64,000 nt of DNA from Sphingomonadales bacterium (GCA_016872215.1 VHAX01000002.1:62001-126000); one strand, 5' to 3'. Positions 10,868 to 24,301 are shown, counted from the first letter of the stretch. Notes: a model not told the origin generated them from the letters alone. Translations and numbers: made by a program.

Positions 10868-12133
10868 TCATAGTTTTCGATTGGCCAACAAGGACGGTGG
10901 CTCTCCGTTGAAGAGATTCTCCCGCCCAATGGTTCGTGCCATTAGTCCCGACGCCCGAACCACGGCGCGATCTCCAAACCGCTCCCTCATGCGGTCTATG
11001 GCTTCGTAGAGCTGCTGTGCCTGCGGCACTTGTTCAAACAGCCGAAGCTGCACACCACCCGAAACCAAATCGCTGAAACGTACACCCACCAGGCGAATCA
11101 ACAGTCGGCGGTTATAGAGGCGTTGAAATAGTTCACCGACCAGTGGAGTCAGTATGTGGTCGGCGCTGCTGTAGGCGATTTGCTTTTGAATGGTTACCGT
11201 CTGAAAATCGGAATACCGGATTTTGACCGCCACACAAGCGCACAGGCGTCCGCCCCGGCGGAGCTGAAAGGCCAGATTCTCCGTCATGGCCGTGAGGATG
11301 CCCCTGATTTTTTGCAGATCGGTGGTATCGCGTTCGAAGGTGCGCTCGGTAGAAATCGATTTGCGTTCACTGAACGGCAACACCGGGGCGTTGTCTTCAC
11401 CATTGGCTTTTTTCCATAGCTGTAATCCTGATTGTCCAAACACCCGCTGCAGCAAGTCGGGTGGTATGTGCTGCAGGGTGTGTATGTGTTGTATGCCCAA
11501 TCCACGCAGCGAATGATACATTTTTTCACCCACCATGGGGATTTTTCGGACCGATAAGGGAGCCAAAAATGATTTTTCCGTTCCACGCACCACTGATCGG
11601 GCATTGTTGGGCTTCGCCTCACCTGTTGCAATTTTAGATACGGTTTTGTTGACCGATATGCCACAGGAAATCGGCAATCCTGTTTCGCGGATGATCCTCT
11701 TCCTCAGGTCTTGGGCTATGCGTGTGCAGCCAAAAAATCGATCCATGCCGCTTAAATCGGCATAAAACTCATCAATCGAAGATTTTTCCAGTACGGGCAC
11801 AGCGGCCGACACGATATCCGTTACCGCCTTGCTGTATTCCGTGTATTGCGCTGTATTGCCACGGATGACGATGGCTTCGGGACAAAAATGCCGGGCCATT
11901 TTCATAGGCATTCCGGAATGTATGCCAAAACGACGGGCCTCATAGCTGCACGAGGCTACTACCCCACGGTCGCTCATGCCACCCACCAACACTGGCTTAT
12001 TGTTGAGACGGCTGTCGATCAGGCGCTCCACCGAAACAAAAAATGTATCCAGATCGAGGTGGAGCACCGTTCGTGCACCCCAAACACTGTCAGGGGAGTC
12101 ATGAGATTCTGGTTGGGATTGCATAGAATTCAT
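10868..12133 (-). CDS. dinB: Y-family DNA polymerase IV (DinB type), last gene of mutagenesis cassette
   Basis: This is a translesion DNA polymerase of 421 residues. The catalytic residues are visible: D27 in HLDLDTFF, the D121-E122 pair in SSIDEFYADLSG, and a steric-gate Phe near residue 32. A beta-clamp-binding pentapeptide QLRLF is at about 362-366, in the little-finger domain. Unlike ImuB, which has lost its catalytic acids, this polymerase should be active. It is the third gene of a minus-strand operon with the LexA-like repressor and the DnaE2-type polymerase, ten bases after the dnaE stop. The arrangement suggests damage-induced co-expression; this is inferred from context. The in-frame ATG three codons downstream is an alternative start. 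Confidence 0.92.
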   Translation of the reverse strand: MNSMQSQPESHDSPDSVWGARTVLHLDLDTFFVSVERLIDSRLNNKPVLVGGMSDRGVVASCSYEARRFGIHSGMPMKMARHFCPEAIVIRGNTAQYTEYSKAVTDIVSAAVPVLEKSSIDEFYADLSGMDRFFGCTRIAQDLRKRIIRETGLPISCGISVNKTVSKIATGEAKPNNARSVVRGTEKSFLAPLSVRKIPMVGEKMYHSLRGLGIQHIHTLQHIPPDLLQRVFGQSGLQLWKKANGEDNAPVLPFSERKSISTERTFERDTTDLQKIRGILTAMTENLAFQLRRGGRLCACVAVKIRYSDFQTVTIQKQIAYSSADHILTPLVGELFQRLYNRRLLIRLVGVRFSDLVSGGVQLRLFEQVPQAQQLYEAIDRMRERFGDRAVVRASGLMARTIGRENLFNGEPPSLLANRKL

Positions 12134-12143
12134 CGGTTTGGAA

Positions 12144-15100
12144 TCAGGTGGTTGCTATCGTGGATTGATGGATTTCACCTGCCGCAGCGGCAACAATCCA
12201 TTCCGGCTGCCTGGACTCGGGCGGGGCGGGGTGGTGTGGTTCGCACGAAGCAGGAGCACGGGGCTCGGGCAAGGCAAGAGTATGGGATTCAGGCAATATG
12301 GAGGGATGAGACCTAGGCGGGGTGGTGTGGCGTGGCGAGTCGACAAAACGGGGGTCCGGGATTCTTGGCCACAATTCCATGCGCTGCACCTCTAGGCTGT
12401 AGAAACCCAATTCTTCGGTTACCCGCCCCAATAGATGGTAGACACCGGGACCACGAAAAGGATATCGCGCAACCACCGGGGGAAAGTGAACCGTATCGAT
12501 GTAGTCGCCCCGCTGGTCGACGAACGTACCAAATTGCATCCGATCACCCTTCACTGTCCGAGTGTCTTTGATACTCACCAAATAGGCGTTGACCACAACC
12601 ACCCGTCCGCGGTGCGCCTTCATATCGGCCGAAAAAATCCCAGCCGGCGGGGTGCCCGAAAGGAGACTAAACGGACTACTCAGCGGGAAGCCGAGCAGCT
12701 CATACTCCTCAAAAGCCGATTCATGGTCTGCCTCCTCCAATAGAGGCAAATCGGGCGTGGGCGACACATCCCGAAAAAACAGCATACCAGAAGAAGGTAC
12801 AGACACCTTTTCTAAGGTGTGCAAATGAGCCTCCCACATCAGGGCCTTTTTAGATAGCCCTGTAAACCGAAAAGCCCCTATACGCACCAAAAGAATGAGC
12901 TGCTCACGTAGGGGTGAGAGTCGCCGACAAAAATCAGGAAGGTTTGCAAAAACACCTCCCCGCTTCCGTTCGGCCAACAGCCGTGCTACAAAATCCTCAT
13001 TAATGCCCCTGATCATCAACAAGCCGAGGCGGATTTCACGACCACACAGCCCGACTTCGCCCTCACTATGCTGTACGCAGGGTGCAGAAATCTGCGCGCC
13101 CAGGCGCATCGCTTCGTGCAGGTAATGCTCCGTACTGTAGAACCCGCCCCCATTGCGCAGGGTAGCCACCATATATTCCAGCGGGTAATGTGCCTTAAGA
13201 TAGAGACTCTGGTAGCTCTCCACTACATAAGATGCGGCATGTCCCTTGGCAAAGGCGTACCCTGCAAAACTTTCGATTTGTCGCCACACCTCGCGGCCCA
13301 GATCGGGCGAGTGCCCTCGCGCACGGCACCCTTCAAAAAAGCGTGACCTGACCTGTTCGAGCTCGTCGCGACTCCTGAATTTACCACTCATGCCCCTGCG
13401 AAGCACATCCGCTTCAGCCAGGGTTAGTCCCGCAAAACAATGGGCCACCCGGATCACATCTTCCTGATAGACCATCACACCATGGGTTTCAGGCATGATA
13501 TCGAGCAGAACGGGGGGTGTTTCGCGACGGCGTTCAGGAAAGCGACACCGAAGAATATAGGTCTGCATCATTCCGGAACGGGCTACACCAGGGCGAATCA
13601 CCGAACTGGCAGCCACCAACCCTAAATAATCCTGGACCTGAAGTTTGCACATCAGCATACGCATGGCCGGAGACTCCACATAAAAGCACCCGATGGTGCG
13701 GGCCTCCCGAACGAGGCGCCGGGTGGCCTCGTCGTTTTTGAATACCTCAGTCTGGTAGAGGTCGATGGGGGTTTCATCAGGGCGATTTTGGGCAATCAGG
13801 GCGAGTGCATCGGTGATTTTGGCTAGTCCACGCTGACTCAGTATATCGAATTTATGTAAACCCGCATCTTCTGCAATATTCATATCGAATTGGGTAGTGG
13901 GGAATCCCTTGGGGGGCAGAAAGGTGGCGCTGAAATGCTGGACGGGATCGCGGGTAATCAGAATTCCGCCAGCGTGTATGCCCAAGTAGTTGGGCAGTCC
14001 ATTGAGTCGCGCTGCGTATTGCAATATGAGATGTATTGTACGGTCGTCGCCACCGCCTGTCGACCGTCCACTTGCCAGTGCCTCAGTTTCATGGGGGGGC
14101 AAACCCAGTACCTTGGCCAGTTCCCGAACCAGGGCCCGGTACTGAAACGTAACGTATGTGCCCAAAAGAGCAACATTCGGGAAGCGATCAAAAATATAAG
14201 TAATGATCCGGTCGCGCTCCTTCCAGGAAAAATCAATATCGAAATCGGGCGGATTGCGGCGATATAGGTTGATGAACCGCTCGAAATAAAGGTTCAATTC
14301 GATGGGGTCAACCTGGGTAATTTGAAGCAGATAAGCCACCAGGCTGTTGGCACCACTACCCCGACCCACATAAAAGAAGCTGCAACTGCGGGCATATTTC
14401 AATATTTTCCAACTGATCAAAAAGTAAGATACGTAGCGCTTCTGCCTAATGATTTCCAGCTCCTTTTCCAGCCTGGTGTATACCTGTTCGGATGCTTTGG
14501 GGTAGAACAGAGGTAGGTTGAGGCTGCACAGCCGGCGCAACAGACGAAAGTCGAGTTCTTCCTGAGCCGTGTAGGTCTGCTGATTTTTGTGGGGATATTG
14601 TTGTCCGAATTCAAAATGAATGCGGCAGCGATCGGTCAGGCATCGTGTCTGGTAGATGAGATCGGGAAACGCACGGTAGGCCTCCGTAAACTGGTCCAAT
14701 GGCATCCAGCGATGAGCATCCGGAGCTGGATCCTCCGGGGGCAACTTACTGAGCAGGCAGTTGTGGTCGATCGACCGCAACAGGCGGTGTGCATTCCAGT
14801 CAGCACGATCGCGAAAGGTCATAGGTTGAAGGGCGAGCGCCTTACCTGGCGGCACGCGACGGGAAATCAGACGCCAGCGCGACAATTCCCGGATTTCTAC
14901 ACCCAAAAATTCATGTTCCGCCAGCTGATGTCCACTCCAAACTGGCAGGGAATAGATCGCCACCGCGTGGCGGAATCGGGGTGCACGGTATCCGGGTTGA
15001 ATCTTGCCCTGGAGTATGTCGCTCAGGTGAACACACACCTCAACATATCCGTCGTTGTTGCACGCCAAAATCAGGTAATGTGGCCGATTGCGGACGCGTA

Positions 15101-15290
15101 TGTCGACCCCAGCCAGGGGTCTGACACCGTAGGAAGGTGCCAGACGCACAAAGTCGAGTATGGCCGCCGTACTATTGATATCGGTGATGGCCACACAGTC
15201 GACCCCCGCCTCTCTGGCCTGCTCGAGGATCTGAACGGGCGACAAAACCCCATACCGCAGACTGAATCCGCTGTGGACCTGCACATACAT
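12144..15290 (-). CDS. dnaE2: Error-prone DNA polymerase III alpha subunit, DnaE2 type
   Basis: This 1048-residue C-family polymerase has an N-terminal PHP domain (about 1-90; start MYVQVHSGFSLRYG), in which the second metal motif reads TDINS instead of TDH, suggesting a degenerate nuclease site. The polymerase core has GRGSGANS at 309-316, the catalytic pair D351/D353 in PDFDIDF, IHAGG at 438-442 and the third aspartate D482 in KFDIL. Helix-hairpin-helix and OB regions follow, and then a proline-rich tail of about 70 residues containing DNA repeats. The housekeeping replicative DnaE is not here. The genes on either side (LexA-like repressor 12 bases upstream, dinB 10 bases downstream) make this the polymerase of a lexA-dnaE2-dinB cassette analogous to imuA-imuB-dnaE2. 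The DnaE2 assignment over a second DnaE1 rests on this context and length. Confidence 0.88.
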   Translation of the reverse strand: MYVQVHSGFSLRYGVLSPVQILEQAREAGVDCVAITDINSTAAILDFVRLAPSYGVRPLAGVDIRVRNRPHYLILACNNDGYVEVCVHLSDILQGKIQPGYRAPRFRHAVAIYSLPVWSGHQLAEHEFLGVEIRELSRWRLISRRVPPGKALALQPMTFRDRADWNAHRLLRSIDHNCLLSKLPPEDPAPDAHRWMPLDQFTEAYRAFPDLIYQTRCLTDRCRIHFEFGQQYPHKNQQTYTAQEELDFRLLRRLCSLNLPLFYPKASEQVYTRLEKELEIIRQKRYVSYFLISWKILKYARSCSFFYVGRGSGANSLVAYLLQITQVDPIELNLYFERFINLYRRNPPDFDIDFSWKERDRIITYIFDRFPNVALLGTYVTFQYRALVRELAKVLGLPPHETEALASGRSTGGGDDRTIHLILQYAARLNGLPNYLGIHAGGILITRDPVQHFSATFLPPKGFPTTQFDMNIAEDAGLHKFDILSQRGLAKITDALALIAQNRPDETPIDLYQTEVFKNDEATRRLVREARTIGCFYVESPAMRMLMCKLQVQDYLGLVAASSVIRPGVARSGMMQTYILRCRFPERRRETPPVLLDIMPETHGVMVYQEDVIRVAHCFAGLTLAEADVLRRGMSGKFRSRDELEQVRSRFFEGCRARGHSPDLGREVWRQIESFAGYAFAKGHAASYVVESYQSLYLKAHYPLEYMVATLRNGGGFYSTEHYLHEAMRLGAQISAPCVQHSEGEVGLCGREIRLGLLMIRGINEDFVARLLAERKRGGVFANLPDFCRRLSPLREQLILLVRIGAFRFTGLSKKALMWEAHLHTLEKVSVPSSGMLFFRDVSPTPDLPLLEEADHESAFEEYELLGFPLSSPFSLLSGTPPAGIFSADMKAHRGRVVVVNAYLVSIKDTRTVKGDRMQFGTFVDQRGDYIDTVHFPPVVARYPFRGPGVYHLLGRVTEELGFYSLEVQRMELWPRIPDPRFVDSPRHTTPPRSHPSILPESHTLALPEPRAPASCEPHHPAPPESRQPEWIVAAAAGEIHQSTIATT
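12225..12330. repeat. Pair of 15-bp direct repeats in the dnaE2 3' end
   Basis: GGCGGGGTGGTGTGG occurs at 12225-12239 and again at 12316-12330, 91 bp apart. Both copies lie in the part of dnaE2 that encodes the proline-rich tail, and they are read in two different frames. Confidence 0.75.
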
Positions 15291-15302
15291 TATGAAGAAC
15301 GT

Positions 15303-16112
15303 TTACGCCCGACCCGGATTCTGCTGCGGAACATACTGATCCAGCAACTGACGCAACCGCCCCAGGAGCGCTCCCGCCTCATCGGAAGCACCCCGATGCG
15401 GATCCGGCAAATCGAAACTTAGGTAGGCCTTAACCCGCCATACTTCAAGGAGCTGATCGGCCGTCATCCGATAGGGATGATAAGCTGGATTATCTGAAAT
15501 CAGCTCCAAATAACCTTCACTGAGGTAGTTTTTGATGCGCTTGAATACCACACCTTCACCGGCAGACACCACAACACAGCATTGGTAGTCGCGCAGCTGC
15601 TGCCAATCGCGTACAAATTCCGCGATGAGGTACGCCCCATCGGGAAGCGGGTGCATGCTGTCGCCCTTGATCTGAAACATGCGGTAGGACCGGTTCGGGT
15701 TCAGCTCCGAAACCGGGAGCATAAATTGGGGAAGGCGGGCCACGAAATCGGGATCTCGGTGGCCCTCTAGGTAGCCAGCCGCCGCCTGAACAGGCACCAG
15801 GGTGATCTGTTCGTGTTGATCGGCCCCGTCTACCACCACCGACAACACCCGTAGCCGTTCGCCCGCTGGATCGGAATGACGTACCCCGCCAGGCAAACGA
15901 ACCGCCTCCTCCTTCACCAGCTCATCGACCGAACAGCCGAAGCAATCGGCGAGTTGACCCATCACCTCAAGCGGGGGGGCAGCCCTACCCTGTTCATACG
16001 CGCCCACCGTAGCCCGTGCTATGCCCAGGCGCATAGCGAGCTGCTGCTGCGTGAAACCCAGCTTTCTGCGAAAGCGCCCCATATTACGTCCAAAAATCAG
16101 TTTGATGTCCAT
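15303..16112 (-). CDS. LexA-like self-cleaving repressor (XRE HTH + S24 peptidase)
   Basis: This 269-residue protein joins an XRE-type helix-turn-helix (about 6-62, with FTQQQLAMRLGIARATVGAYEQG) to an S24/LexA serine peptidase. The autocleavage site is the Ala112-Gly113 bond in QAAAGYLEG. The nucleophile Ser152 lies in GDSMHPLPDG, and the general-base Lys191 in VVFKRIKN. All catalytic elements for RecA-stimulated self-cleavage are therefore present. It is the first gene of a minus-strand operon with dnaE2 and dinB, so it most likely represses this operon and is inactivated on DNA damage. The XRE-type DNA-binding domain differs from the winged helix of classical LexA and resembles phage CI repressors, but no phage genes are nearby. 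A 35-residue C-terminal extension after the peptidase is unusual. Confidence 0.88.
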   Translation of the reverse strand: MDIKLIFGRNMGRFRRKLGFTQQQLAMRLGIARATVGAYEQGRAAPPLEVMGQLADCFGCSVDELVKEEAVRLPGGVRHSDPAGERLRVLSVVVDGADQHEQITLVPVQAAAGYLEGHRDPDFVARLPQFMLPVSELNPNRSYRMFQIKGDSMHPLPDGAYLIAEFVRDWQQLRDYQCCVVVSAGEGVVFKRIKNYLSEGYLELISDNPAYHPYRMTADQLLEVWRVKAYLSFDLPDPHRGASDEAGALLGRLRQLLDQYVPQQNPGRA

Positions 16113-16217: not shown

Positions 16218-16640
16218 ATGAGTTACAAACGACTGAACAGCGACCTCATCGACCTCATCGACCTGCGTAATGAGCTGTACGAAATGGCCTTCAACGACCC
16301 CAAATACGACGATTTAGAAGACGAACTGCATGACTTCGAGGACACCTTCAACCGACGTTATCAAGAACTGATCGAACCCATACTCATACGCATACACAAA
16401 AAACTAACCCCAGAAATACCCCACCTCATTCCAACGGCCTATGTTGGTAACCACTACGAATACCTGTCCGAAACCGATACCTATGAAACCGACGGCACCT
16501 CAGGTGTAGTTCTCGAAAATGGACAAGGACACAACTTCCGCCTGACATTCATACCCAACCCCACCCGCCTGCTGCTCACCAGCAGTAGAGATATGCAGGT
16601 GGTATGGAACGAAAACCAACCCGATGAAGCAATCAAATAA
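16218..16640 (+). CDS. Acidic conserved-looking hypothetical protein (140 aa)
   Basis: I cannot assign a function. The 140-residue protein is soluble, with no signal peptide or membrane segment. It is strongly acidic in its first half (LEDELHDFEDTFNRRYQEL), which reads as two amphipathic helices, and the second half is beta-rich (SGVVLENGQGHNFRLTF and a final RLLLTSSRDMQVVW). The start is set at ATG 16218; a TTG two codons upstream is less likely. It is transcribed divergently from the LexA-like repressor, from a near-leaderless promoter, and its 3' end overlaps the MbnP-like gene by 17 bases, so it may be co-translated with that cluster. I have a weak impression of similar unannotated Bacteroidota proteins, which a search would settle. 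Confidence 0.75.
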   Translation: MSYKRLNSDLIDLIDLRNELYEMAFNDPKYDDLEDELHDFEDTFNRRYQELIEPILIRIHKKLTPEIPHLIPTAYVGNHYEYLSETDTYETDGTSGVVLENGQGHNFRLTFIPNPTRLLLTSSRDMQVVWNENQPDEAIK

Positions 16641-17385
16641 ATATCTATCGTTACTGATGGCCATTGGGCTATTGTACGGATGTGATCCACGTCCCGTTCC
16701 GGTTCCCCAACCCGACCCTACGTCGATCGACCTAATTCTCGACCACCGATTTGGCCCACAAAGGCTGCAATTGGGCGATGTACAATATAACACACTCAAC
16801 AACCCAGTGGGAATCGACGTGCTCGACTACTACCTCGGGAAGCCATCGTTTCAAAAGCCCGACGGCTCGTGGGTCAACAGCTCATCCTATTTTTTAGTGA
16901 AGGCTCAATCAGACAAACCCGATACGCTCAGAATCACCGACGTGCCCGTGGGCGCATACATACGCCTACGTTTCACACTTGGTGTGGATTCGACCGACAA
17001 CCACGCGGATCCTGCCCACTGGCCCAATGAGCATGGACTCAGCCTGATGAATGGGGGACTAATGCACTGGGGTTGGAATGCCGGATACATCTTCTTTAAG
17101 CTCGAAGGGCGCTACCGCAATATAGTCTCCCAAAACCGTGGCTATAGCTACCACATTGGGCGCGACGATCTGATCAGTCGATTTACCTCTCCGACACTCA
17201 ACATCCAACATCAGGAGGGAAAATCTACCGCCGTCCGCATAAACATGCGGGTCGACCGCTTTTTCAATGAGCCCCACGCACACCTCATATCCGACACCTC
17301 TTTTTTCACCCACAGTACACTGGGCGATACCATAGCCCCCGTTTTGCATGGAAATATGCAGGGATTGTTTGAATTTCCACAATAA
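16624..17385 (+). CDS. MbnP-like lipoprotein
   Basis: This 253-residue protein has a lipoprotein signal peptide (lipobox LYGC, lipidated Cys20) and a proline-rich linker, followed by a domain of the MbnP type. Its landmark is the stretch MHWGWNAGYIFFKLEG at about 147-162, with Trp149 and Trp151; further Trp residues are at 83 and 133. In methanotrophs, MbnP is a periplasmic copper-binding protein in which the di-heme enzyme MbnH converts a Trp to kynurenine. Two MbnH-like di-heme proteins follow directly here, which supports the assignment. The start overlaps the preceding gene by 17 bases. Copper binding and Trp modification in this organism are inference from the family. Confidence 0.8.
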   Translation: MKQSNKYLSLLMAIGLLYGCDPRPVPVPQPDPTSIDLILDHRFGPQRLQLGDVQYNTLNNPVGIDVLDYYLGKPSFQKPDGSWVNSSSYFLVKAQSDKPDTLRITDVPVGAYIRLRFTLGVDSTDNHADPAHWPNEHGLSLMNGGLMHWGWNAGYIFFKLEGRYRNIVSQNRGYSYHIGRDDLISRFTSPTLNIQHQEGKSTAVRINMRVDRFFNEPHAHLISDTSFFTHSTLGDTIAPVLHGNMQGLFEFPQ

Positions 17386-17468
17386 GCGAATCCGTCCACT
17401 GAAACATGAACCTCCACGGCCTCATCCTCAGCCAAGAAAGCAACATCCATCAATCCCAAAGGATATGG

Positions 17469-18557
17469 ATGCGGATTCTCGCTCCTCTATGCTTTACTAT
17501 GTTGACCTGGTCTTGCCAACCCGACAAACCACCCGTTCCCAAAGAATACCCCGAACCCACCCCATACACCTGGACGACGAGACCTTTTTTTCCACCCCCG
17601 ATCCTTCCATCTGACAACCCCCTCACCCTACAAGGGGTTGAGCTGGGTCGACACCTATTCTATGAAAAAAAGATGAGTGGCGACAATAGCCAGTCGTGCG
17701 CCAGCTGTCACCGCCTCAATTATGCATTCAGCGACTCCCTCCAGCGCTACAGCACAGGAATCGATGGAATTGCAGGGACCCGCAACAGCATGGCTCTGTT
17801 CAACCTAACATGGCACACCCGTTTTTTCTGGGACGGACGGGCTCCAGGTCTTCGTCAACAGGTATTGATGCCCATACAAGACCCGATTGAAATGCATCAA
17901 ACACTCCCTGAAACCGTCAGAAAAATATCAGAAACCACCAAGTACAAAGCACTATTTGGTTCGGCTTTCCGCAGCGAAGAGGTTACCCCGGATCGCATTG
18001 CACGTGCCCTGGAACAATTCCTCCTCACCGTAGTATCGGGCGACAGCCGTTTCGATCGATTTAGACAAAATCCGGTAGCCAATCCACTCTCAGCTTCCGA
18101 ACAACGGGGATTTGACCTGTTTATGCGTGAATACAGTGCTCCATCAACTGGTAGACCAAGGGGTGCCGACTGCTTTCATTGCCATGGCGGACACCTATTT
18201 CGTGTAGATGCGTTCTTCGACAATGGACTAGACGAACAACCCGCTACAGGGTATGAGTCTGTGACTGGATCAGCCTCCGATCGGGGAAAGTTTAAAGCCA
18301 GCAGCCTGCGCAACATTACGCTGACCGCGCCATATATGCACGACGGGCGATTTTCAACCTTAGAAGAGGTATTAGAACACTACAGCCATCACCTAAAAAA
18401 CAGCCCAAACCTCGACCCTAACCTTAGAGTGGCAAATCAGTCAGAGGGCGGGCTTAATTTATCCAGTCAGGACAAACAAGACATAATTGCCTTTTTACAC
18501 ACGCTGACCGACTCATCGTTTATAAGCAACCCAGCCTATAAGATGCCGTTAGATTAA
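17469..18557 (+). CDS. Di-heme cytochrome c peroxidase family lipoprotein (MbnH/MauG-like), intact
   Basis: Two c-type heme sites are present, CASCH and CFHCH, in the bacterial cytochrome c peroxidase / MauG / MbnH fold. The family motif FFWDGRAPG supplies the tryptophan expected between the two hemes, and APYMHDGRFSTLEEV is the conserved C-terminal signature. The start is placed at ATG 17469, giving a lipoprotein signal with lipobox LTWSC. An in-frame ATG at 17406 would give a 36-residue pre-Cys segment, longer than usual. The product would be a 362-residue periplasm-facing lipoprotein. Position directly after the MbnP-like gene makes MbnP the likely substrate. The alternative is a hydrogen peroxide detoxifying peroxidase. 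Heme attachment requires the Ccm-type system, part of which is at 53-55 kb. Confidence 0.85.
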   Translation: MRILAPLCFTMLTWSCQPDKPPVPKEYPEPTPYTWTTRPFFPPPILPSDNPLTLQGVELGRHLFYEKKMSGDNSQSCASCHRLNYAFSDSLQRYSTGIDGIAGTRNSMALFNLTWHTRFFWDGRAPGLRQQVLMPIQDPIEMHQTLPETVRKISETTKYKALFGSAFRSEEVTPDRIARALEQFLLTVVSGDSRFDRFRQNPVANPLSASEQRGFDLFMREYSAPSTGRPRGADCFHCHGGHLFRVDAFFDNGLDEQPATGYESVTGSASDRGKFKASSLRNITLTAPYMHDGRFSTLEEVLEHYSHHLKNSPNLDPNLRVANQSEGGLNLSSQDKQDIIAFLHTLTDSSFISNPAYKMPLD

Positions 18558-18613
18558 TGATTTATACTCATTCATGCCAAAATAATTCAGTGCATCATAT
18601 TTAATATAGGATT

Positions 18614-19666
18614 ATGAGGAATTCCTACACCTACCTCAGATTATTTGCCGTAGGCATCCTCTTGTCAATCCTAAACAGCTGCTCCCAGAATCCCGGACAG
18701 CCGCATCCTGCGGATCGCGTTCACTCAATACCAGAAGCCTACCCCCTGCCCGACAGCCTTAGAAATCCCAACGGATTTGAGAGGGACCGAATGACGCTGG
18801 GACAAAAATTATTTTTCGATAAAAGGTTATCAGCAGACGGTAGCATATCCTGCGCCAGTTGTCACAAAGCCCGATATGCCTTCGGAGATTCGTCATCCTT
18901 CAGTCGAGGTATGGCTGGGTACGCCACGCGACGAAATACGCCCCCCTTGTTCAACCTATTTAGACAAATCCGCTTTTTTCGCGACGGAGGTGTGGCCCGC
19001 TTGTCGGAGGTAGCCCTTTCCCCGATGAATGAAGCGCATGAATTGAATCTCCCCATCGACACCCTTGTGAGGCGTCTGCGCACCCTTCCTGAGTATGTTC
19101 GAGAATTCGATAAAATCTACAACCGCTTGCCTGACCCGTTCACCATTACACAGGCCCTGATGGGATATCAGTTGTCGCTTCTCTCCGCATCCAGTCGATA
19201 CGACCAATACCGCTATCAGAGTGATTCGACAGCCCTTTCCCCTGCCGCCTTGCGGGGTATGCGTTTGTTTTTTTCGGACGCAACCCACTGCCGGTCCTGT
19301 CACACTGGCCCCGATTTTACCGATGGTTTATTTCACAGAAATGGACTTACGGATGCAGGGCGACCCGACACCGGACGAGCACGGATCAGTATGAGTTGGG
19401 GTGACTATGCGAGATTCCGCACCCCATCCCTCAGAAACCTGTCATTTTCAGCACCCTATATGCATGATGGTCGTTTCAATACGATTCCAGAGGTATTGGA
19501 ACATTACAACCGAATGTATCAAAAAATGGAACCCATCACCCTACAATCCGACCTTCCACAAATAGGCCGAGAGCTGTCTGTTGAAGAATTGCGCGATTTA
19601 TCTGCCTTTCTGGAACATCTCAATGACAGTATTTTTGTAAATACACCTGCGGATCCCACTCAATAA
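18614..19666 (+). CDS. Second di-heme cytochrome c peroxidase-like lipoprotein, inter-heme Trp replaced
   Basis: This 350-residue paralogue of the preceding gene also has a lipoprotein signal (lipobox LNSC, Cys23) and two heme motifs, CASCH at 80-84 and CRSCH at 226-230. It keeps the C-terminal APYMHDGRFNTIPEVLEHY signature. However, the motif FFWDGR of its neighbour reads FFRDGG here (Arg123 in place of Trp), and the following Gln/Glu region is also divergent. It is 56 bases after the first peroxidase gene, probably in the same transcript. It may be an electron-transfer partner or a specialised enzyme and not a conventional peroxidase; that is inference. The stop is immediately followed by the RNase P RNA promoter. 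Confidence 0.85.
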   Translation: MRNSYTYLRLFAVGILLSILNSCSQNPGQPHPADRVHSIPEAYPLPDSLRNPNGFERDRMTLGQKLFFDKRLSADGSISCASCHKARYAFGDSSSFSRGMAGYATRRNTPPLFNLFRQIRFFRDGGVARLSEVALSPMNEAHELNLPIDTLVRRLRTLPEYVREFDKIYNRLPDPFTITQALMGYQLSLLSASSRYDQYRYQSDSTALSPAALRGMRLFFSDATHCRSCHTGPDFTDGLFHRNGLTDAGRPDTGRARISMSWGDYARFRTPSLRNLSFSAPYMHDGRFNTIPEVLEHYNRMYQKMEPITLQSDLPQIGRELSVEELRDLSAFLEHLNDSIFVNTPADPTQ

Positions 19667-19676: not shown

Positions 19677-19680
19677 CCCT

Positions 19681-19999
19681 GCAGTCGGCTCTGTCGCTCT
19701 GCCCCTCAGGCAGAGAGGAAAGTCCGGACAACACAGAGCACCAGGCACCGGAAATCGGTGGTCGGGGTAACCCGGCAGATCGTGCCACAGAAAATTACCG
19801 CCCCTTGGGGTAAGGGTGAAAATGTGGGGTAAAAGCCCACAGTTCGTGTAAGCGATTGCTCGAACGGGTAAACCTCCTGGGTTGCAAGGCCATGTAAACC
19901 GACAGTGATGTTGCTCGCTTCGGTCGGAGGGTAGGCCGCTCAGATAAATGACAGGGGTCCCACGAAAATGGGCACACAGAATCCGGCTTACAAGACTGC
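19681..19999 (+). ncRNA. rnpB: RNase P RNA (class A)
   Basis: This is the catalytic RNA of RNase P, which trims the 5' leaders of tRNAs. The universally conserved CR I segment GAGGAAAGTCCGGAC is at about 19719-19733, and the matching 3' conserved segment ACAGAATCCGGCTTAC is near 19976-19991. The terminal P1 helix can be seen: GCAGTC at the 5' end pairs with GACTGC at 19994-19999, which fixes both boundaries to within a few bases. The RNA is about 319 nt, normal for type A. It has its own -7 box and a strong terminator. Confidence 0.95.
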
Positions 20000-20025
20000 C
20001 CGGGCCCGTAGGGGCCCGGATTTTA
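20000..20025 (+). terminator. Rho-independent terminator of rnpB
   Basis: CCGGGCCC, a GTAG loop, and GGGCCCGG make a perfect 8-bp G/C stem. It is followed by ATTTTATT and begins right at the end of RNase P RNA. Confidence 0.85.
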
Positions 20026-23683: not shown

Positions 23684-24301
23684 TTATTGTTTCCCTGATT
23701 CCGACCACCGCAAGCCAGACGCGAGTCGCTCCATCTCTCCCAGCATATAATCCACAACAGGTGCCATGCTGTCGGGATGAGGCGTGGCGTCGAAATAGAG
23801 TGCGGCCCGCAGGAAGTGGCGTGTGCTGTCGGTAACATAAAATTGTGAATTGCTGGCGGCATGTCCCGAAAGCCGATAAAACAGTCCATATACCCCTCGA
23901 TCTGAATGAGCCAATGGATCCTCCAATATTTCATTGGCCCTAATTGTATGCTTAAAAACCAACTCCTGGGATCCTCTGATGCATTCCCCCAATTTTCCCT
24001 TTTCACTCAGGGGTACATAAGTGAAGTGTATACTGGCGCGAATGTCCGGATAGTGAATATCGACCCAACAGGCGGTTCCGCTCCTCCCTTTGGGGTAACT
24101 GACTTTTGCTGATTGGTTTATTCTGAGTTCGAAGGGACAGTCAAGCCGGATATAGACCGCCGAGGTATCCGGTAAATGAATGCGGTGATAGGCATAGGGT
24201 CGCGGCATGGGCACATCGTGTTCGCATCCTAACCAAATTGTTGGCAGCAGGCAGAAGAAAAAGGGCCATAATCCAATGGGAATTACCCTAATTCTATTCA
24301 T
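23684..24301 (-). CDS. gldD: Gliding motility lipoprotein GldD
   Basis: GldD is a lipoprotein needed for gliding and for type IX secretion in Flavobacterium, where it is encoded just after gldE. The 205-residue protein starts with a signal ending in the lipobox IWLGC (Cys26), followed by PMPRPYAYHRI, the proline-rich start typical of GldD. Further similarity includes WVDIHYPDIRASIHFTY and a C-terminal helix. It overlaps the end of gldE by eight bases, and the gene order mutY-ssb-gldE-gldD strongly supports the identification. The biochemical role in secretin or motor assembly is unresolved. Confidence 0.9.
   Translation of the reverse strand: MNRIRVIPIGLWPFFFCLLPTIWLGCEHDVPMPRPYAYHRIHLPDTSAVYIRLDCPFELRINQSAKVSYPKGRSGTACWVDIHYPDIRASIHFTYVPLSEKGKLGECIRGSQELVFKHTIRANEILEDPLAHSDRGVYGLFYRLSGHAASNSQFYVTDSTRHFLRAALYFDATPHPDSMAPVVDYMLGEMERLASGLRWSESGKQ

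Follow-up and report, generated by a model that had tools for sequence, protein, structure and literature searches.

We asked what an MbnP-like lipoprotein does beside two MbnH/MauG-type di-haem proteins, named here DH-A and DH-B, and what the second of these contributes. The window, the whole stretch of DNA analysed, is 64,000 nucleotides long. Pairs of MbnP and MbnH remote from methanobactin clusters were described as widespread in 2013 (PMC3621798), and MbnP was present in 45 of 60 related genomes. The pair outside methanobactin, which a sequence-only reading had presented as novel, was therefore already on record. The less ordinary part of the locus is the second di-haem gene, DH-B, beside MbnP and DH-A. 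In the literature searched we found no description of a conserved trio whose second enzyme is Trp-less; the 2019 and 2021 MbnH/MbnP papers lay outside that search.

The operon and its genome

The features of the locus are listed in Table 1. On re-check, the trio occupied 16624-19666 as the sequence-only reading had placed it, and W149 and W151 of MbnP were at the positions it had given. DH-A probably starts at ATG 17469 rather than at 17406; it is at 17469 that its lipoprotein-like signal begins and that the alignment with relatives sets in.

Table 1. Features of the operon and its surroundings, numbered from the first letter of the window.
Feature	Coordinates	Strand	Remarks
SOS-mutagenesis-like cassette	10868..16112	-	HTH + peptidase S24 regulator, DNA polymerase III alpha-like protein, Y-family polymerase
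Gene U	16218..16640	+	~140 aa
MbnP lipoprotein	16624..17385	+	253 aa; PF20243; WxW = W149, W151
DH-A, MbnH/MauG-type di-haem lipoprotein with inter-haem Trp	17469..18557	+	CCP_MauG
DH-B, second di-haem lipoprotein, Trp-less paralogue	18614..19666	+	CCP_MauG
RNase P class A RNA	19678..20006	+	Rfam, 208 bits
Gliding-motility lipoprotein GldD	23684..24301	-	TIGR03512

All three proteins were lipoprotein-like, as had been proposed. Each has an N-terminal hydrophobic stretch that ends in a Cys (C20 of MbnP, C16 of DH-A counted from 17469, C23 of DH-B), and the lipobox Cys of the di-haem proteins was near-invariant in the alignment. In the MbnPs of loci L066-L070 the lipobox Cys is missing and the C-termini are extended. 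The alignment that includes these MbnPs matched T9SS sorting domains of known structure (8GLK, E 1.9e-06), which suggests that they may take another route to the surface.

Gene U, whose 3′ end overlaps the MbnP start by 17 bases, is probably the first gene of the operon. It had no family match in Pfam or NCBIfam. In all genera of the window's family and in L092, homologues of U precede the MbnP operon, either immediately or with a single aldehyde dehydrogenase gene in between. We rejected U as an exclusive partner of MbnP because it occurs without MbnP in genomes G018 and G034. The aldehyde dehydrogenase was also rejected as an operon member; some relatives and L092 have its gene between those for U and MbnP, but the window is without it. 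The divergent cassette upstream and the operon have their intergenic region in common. The RNase P RNA begins 11 bases downstream of the DH-B stop codon; unless the two are co-transcribed, the promoter of this RNA must be inside DH-B. A gene for GldD lies further downstream.

The genome of the window is 2.09 Mb in 53 contigs and 99% complete, and its nearest named records are freshwater Bacteroidota MAGs. It holds one MbnP gene and two CCP_MauG genes in total, all within the operon. The methanobactin biosynthesis family MbnB (PF05114) was absent from the whole genome, which bears out the earlier statement that no methanobactin gene is present, and no copper gene adjoins the operon. Cytochrome c assembly proteins are encoded in the genome, as are a single COX1 and a single SCO1, which makes both the attachment of c-type haem and a client for copper plausible.

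MbnP and its predicted copper site

The MbnP ORF matched PF20243 with an E-value of 2e-33 and 116 bits against a cut-off of 27. An AlphaFold2 model built from nine relatives was of medium confidence (mean pLDDT 65.9). When this model was compared with the PDB, the only matches below E 0.001 were the six chains of 7L6G, the MbnP of M. trichosporium (E 2.7e-07 to 3e-06, TM 0.4-0.5). Identity to MtMbnP in the structural match was only ~13%. The proposed identity as MbnP was thus confirmed, fold included. A phmmer search of the PDB with the single MbnP sequence gave no match. A profile of 31 relatives reached 7L6G at E 0.0097, with the Met, the WxW and the His lined up. The score against the MbnP_like_WxW equivalog TIGR04052 was 32 bits, below the cut-off of 140.

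M147, W149, W151 and H177 of the window MbnP align with 7L6G. Among 70 MbnPs, conservation was 89% for M147, 97% for W149, 87% for W151, 90% for H177 and 100% for G120. The Met and His fall on the copper-ligand positions of 7L6G. MbnH is reported by Manesis et al. 2021 to turn the first Trp of the MtMbnP WxW into kynurenine, and the site is reported to use a His and a Met. From these alignments M147, H177 and W149 are predicted to form a Cu(I) site, with W149 as the candidate for kynurenine.

The locus resembles the M. trichosporium MbnP/MbnH system (7L6G, 6E1C) in the MbnP fold, in the WxW with a Met before and a His after it, in the adjacency of the genes, and in an enzyme with two CxxCH motifs, an inter-haem Trp and a Tyr ligand. 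It differs in having no methanobactin genes, in its extra Trp-less di-haem gene and in falling below the equivalog cut-offs. Also, the lipobox Cys is the only Cys of the window MbnP, while the name in the 7L6G record is "four-Cys motif protein". In CorA/CorB and MopE/SACCP of methanotrophs, Cu(I) is bound near a Trp-derived kynurenine and the gene is paired with a di-haem peroxidase-like partner (PMC3912023). There the copper is held by two His, in contrast to the predicted Met/His of the window MbnP, and no second di-haem gene such as DH-B is described.

Two relatives carry MbnP paralogues without W149, W151 or H177 (L080, 4230-4985; L084, 4409-5164). Neither of the W149-less MbnPs, the one in L080 and the first of the two in L084, is accompanied by a di-haem gene of its own. 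This is expected if the enzyme serves to modify W149, and it concerns two cases only. In an MbnP subgroup (L114, L106, L118, L078 and L128) the first Trp of the WxW is kept and the second is not; the di-haem partners of these MbnPs have unusual distal residues. We also considered whether H148, an additional His that precedes W149, marks partnership with DH-B. The raw association was 23/7 versus 9/27. This candidate was rejected, since there were only 4 well-supported independent pairs and the pattern was indistinguishable from shared ancestry.

Residues of DH-A and DH-B

Both di-haem proteins matched the CCP_MauG profile (E 1.9e-51 for DH-A, 4.2e-43 for DH-B). The best solved structure for both was MbnH, 6E1C (E 3.5e-51 and 1.6e-34, respectively). 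Both have Tyr as the haem ligand, as in MauG, and the description of the two as MbnH/MauG-type proteins therefore stands. Scores against the MbnH family TIGR04039 were 247 bits for DH-A and 198 bits for DH-B, below the cut-off of 363. Against the MauG family TIGR03791 they were 169 and 162 bits, far below the cut-off of 444. The latter sets both proteins apart from MauG of methylamine utilisation, which is in the same superfamily and is a precedent for Trp modification.

DH-A keeps every catalytic position of MauG/MbnH. In the numbering of the 383-aa ORF, W142, Q152, P156 and E162 have exactly the +10/+14/+20 spacing of W93, Q103, P107 and E113 in MauG, and Tyr326 is at the axial-ligand position of MauG. 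The alignment columns were checked by adding Methylobacterium MauG, whose W, Q, P and E fell in the same columns, so the column identity is sound. The features of MbnH (two CxxCH motifs, the Tyr position and the inter-haem Trp) are all present in DH-A. On this residue evidence DH-A is likely to be the kynurenine-forming enzyme.

DH-B has the haems and the Tyr, with Arg in place of Trp. R123 is at the inter-haem Trp position and V133 at the distal Gln position, while E143, two CxxCH motifs, H284, Y298 and the calcium-site residues are retained. A structure model of DH-B was too weak for use (mean pLDDT 59).

We compared these residues across sixty neighbourhoods and eight further loci, in which iterated profiles served to find the genes for MbnP and the di-haem proteins. 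The inter-haem Trp was present in 47 of 48 DH-A and in 4 of 29 DH-B, and the distal Gln in 39 of 48 and 13 of 29. The 25 Trp-less DH-B have Arg (11), Lys (4), Ala (4), Phe (3), Met (2) or Leu (1) at the Trp position. DH-B as a strictly Trp-less family was rejected: four members from genus g2 carry the Trp but are without the distal Gln, Pro and Glu. The sequence-only reading had called the third protein a second, divergent di-heme protein. What it missed is a conserved paralogous family, retained next to MbnP in many genomes, most of whose members are without the inter-haem Trp. For this reason, the same chemistry as in DH-A is not to be assumed for DH-B.

These residues also bear on whether both di-haem proteins are ordinary H2O2-reducing cytochrome c peroxidases, with MbnP a mere neighbour. 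They do belong to the same superfamily, and the genome has no other CCP_MauG gene. But the Met that serves as sixth ligand of the electron-transfer haem in classical peroxidases is absent, and Tyr takes its place in both proteins. Among solved structures no peroxidase ranked as high as MbnH. Genes for MbnP and di-haem proteins are neighbours in dozens of genomes, and DH-B is without the Trp through which electrons are said to pass from haem to haem in peroxidases (PMC10094543). We regard this explanation as improbable.

DH-A and DH-B separated in a tree from which the Trp column was left out. In an unconstrained tree the DH-B group, with 5 W rows included, had 95 SH-aLRT. Forcing all 29 DH-B rows into one clade was not rejected (p-AU 0.55), which is no proof of a clade, and long branches (L127 and the g2 DH-B) make the edges of the group unsure. 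Within the window's genus, dN/dS was ~0.04-0.10 for MbnP, 0.07-0.09 for DH-A and, one noisy pair aside, 0.09-0.15 for DH-B; these ratios are approximate, since synonymous sites approach saturation in comparisons with the window copy.

One might read DH-B as a decaying duplicate with no present function. Its branches are longer than those of DH-A, catalytic residues have been lost in the window's family, and its dN/dS is slightly above that of DH-A and MbnP, with one value of 0.59 in the closest pair that is noisy (dS only 0.12). Against the relatives in the window's genus, however, dN/dS was ~0.09. All or nearly all of the 29 DH-B keep both CxxCH motifs, all have Tyr or Phe at the Tyr position, and all have the calcium-site Asn and Pro. 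The group is also retained across several families and in Ignavibacteria. Decay is thus very improbable, and the ratios indicate that the window DH-B is under purifying selection despite its lost distal Gln.

Conserved linkage and the possible role of DH-B

Besides the window, 21 loci combine genes for MbnP, DH-A and DH-B; they come from Bacteroidota and Ignavibacteria. Twelve are in the window's family (L071, L072, L075, L077, L079, L081, L082, L083, L085, L086, L088 and L090) and nine outside it (L092, L101, L108, L109, L110, L113, L129, L066 from Saprospiraceae and L067 from Ignavibacteria). The order is MbnP-A-B in the window's family, L092 and L129, MbnP-B-A in L066, L067, L101, L108 and L113, and A-MbnP-B in L109 and L110. 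Three gene orders for one trio argue for linked function rather than inherited order.

DH-B may be a second modifying enzyme. It and DH-A would then carry out successive oxidations of one MbnP (e.g. Trp to N-formylkynurenine and on), or the two enzymes would act on W149 and W151 respectively. As a matter of general chemical knowledge, kynurenine formation takes more than one oxidising equivalent. The 87% conservation of W151 would agree with a second target, but W151 is equally conserved where only DH-A is present. DH-B stands alone beside MbnP in L099, L107, L119 and L125, and most DH-B outside the window's family retain a distal pocket with Gln, Pro and Glu. In the window's family, by contrast, the distal Gln of DH-B is gone, and in sister species so is the Pro. 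Both residues are reported to be conserved and to matter for the activation of peroxide (PMC6405878, PMC10094543). We consider a second modifying enzyme unlikely.

BthA from Burkholderia (6NX0, 6V59) resembles DH-B: it belongs to the MauG superfamily and has a Tyr ligand and no inter-haem Trp (Ser257 instead), and it still forms bis-Fe(IV) (PMC6405878). The loss of the Trp alone is therefore no proof that DH-B is inactive. BthA keeps the distal Gln and Pro (PMC6405878), whereas the window DH-B, beside MbnP, has Val at the Gln position. This difference favours a specialised partner, and DH-B is most likely a catalytically altered accessory rather than a second general peroxidase.

Our best explanation is that the operon probably encodes a kynurenine-dependent Cu(I) lipoprotein with two dedicated di-haem partners. 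The Trp-modification or copper-site role suggested earlier for the trio remains the best reading, as a candidate. MbnP would be lipid-anchored on the cell envelope. DH-A, the counterpart of MbnH, would be brought by peroxide into a high-valent di-haem state and oxidise W149, the first Trp of the WxW, to kynurenine, which in turn would let M147 and H177 hold Cu(I). DH-B would be an accessory for the same MbnP, e.g. an electron-transfer or docking partner of DH-A.

More tentatively, it is possible that MbnP maturation in Bacteroidota and Ignavibacteria is a two-enzyme process. Trp-less and Trp-containing MbnH-type proteins might work as a heterodimer or as a sequential pair, with an electron routing unseen in MauG/MbnH. 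If the preferred explanation is true, protein-derived kynurenine copper sites would be part of routine envelope copper handling in a large phylum without methanotrophy. The DH-A/DH-B pairs, two enzymes for one presumed substrate, would then be a natural comparison for the role of the inter-haem Trp. Whether protein-Trp oxidation needs this residue, a question left open by BthA, can be tested with DH-A/DH-B gene sets.

Among 65 genes adjoining MbnP loci there was no dominant copper family. The commonest family was YHYH (6/65), and others, e.g. CusB/HlyD and COX1, were single cases. On a Deinococcus radiodurans plasmid (L133, 3055-6568), genes for MbnP, a di-haem protein, a hypothetical protein, CopC and CopD are consecutive. 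This row is direct neighbourhood evidence for copper, but it is from another phylum and has a Trp-containing enzyme. The gene right after MbnP and a di-haem gene in L104 (4344-5723) and in L112 (5575-6945) encodes a YHYH-domain protein that carries a T9SS sorting domain.
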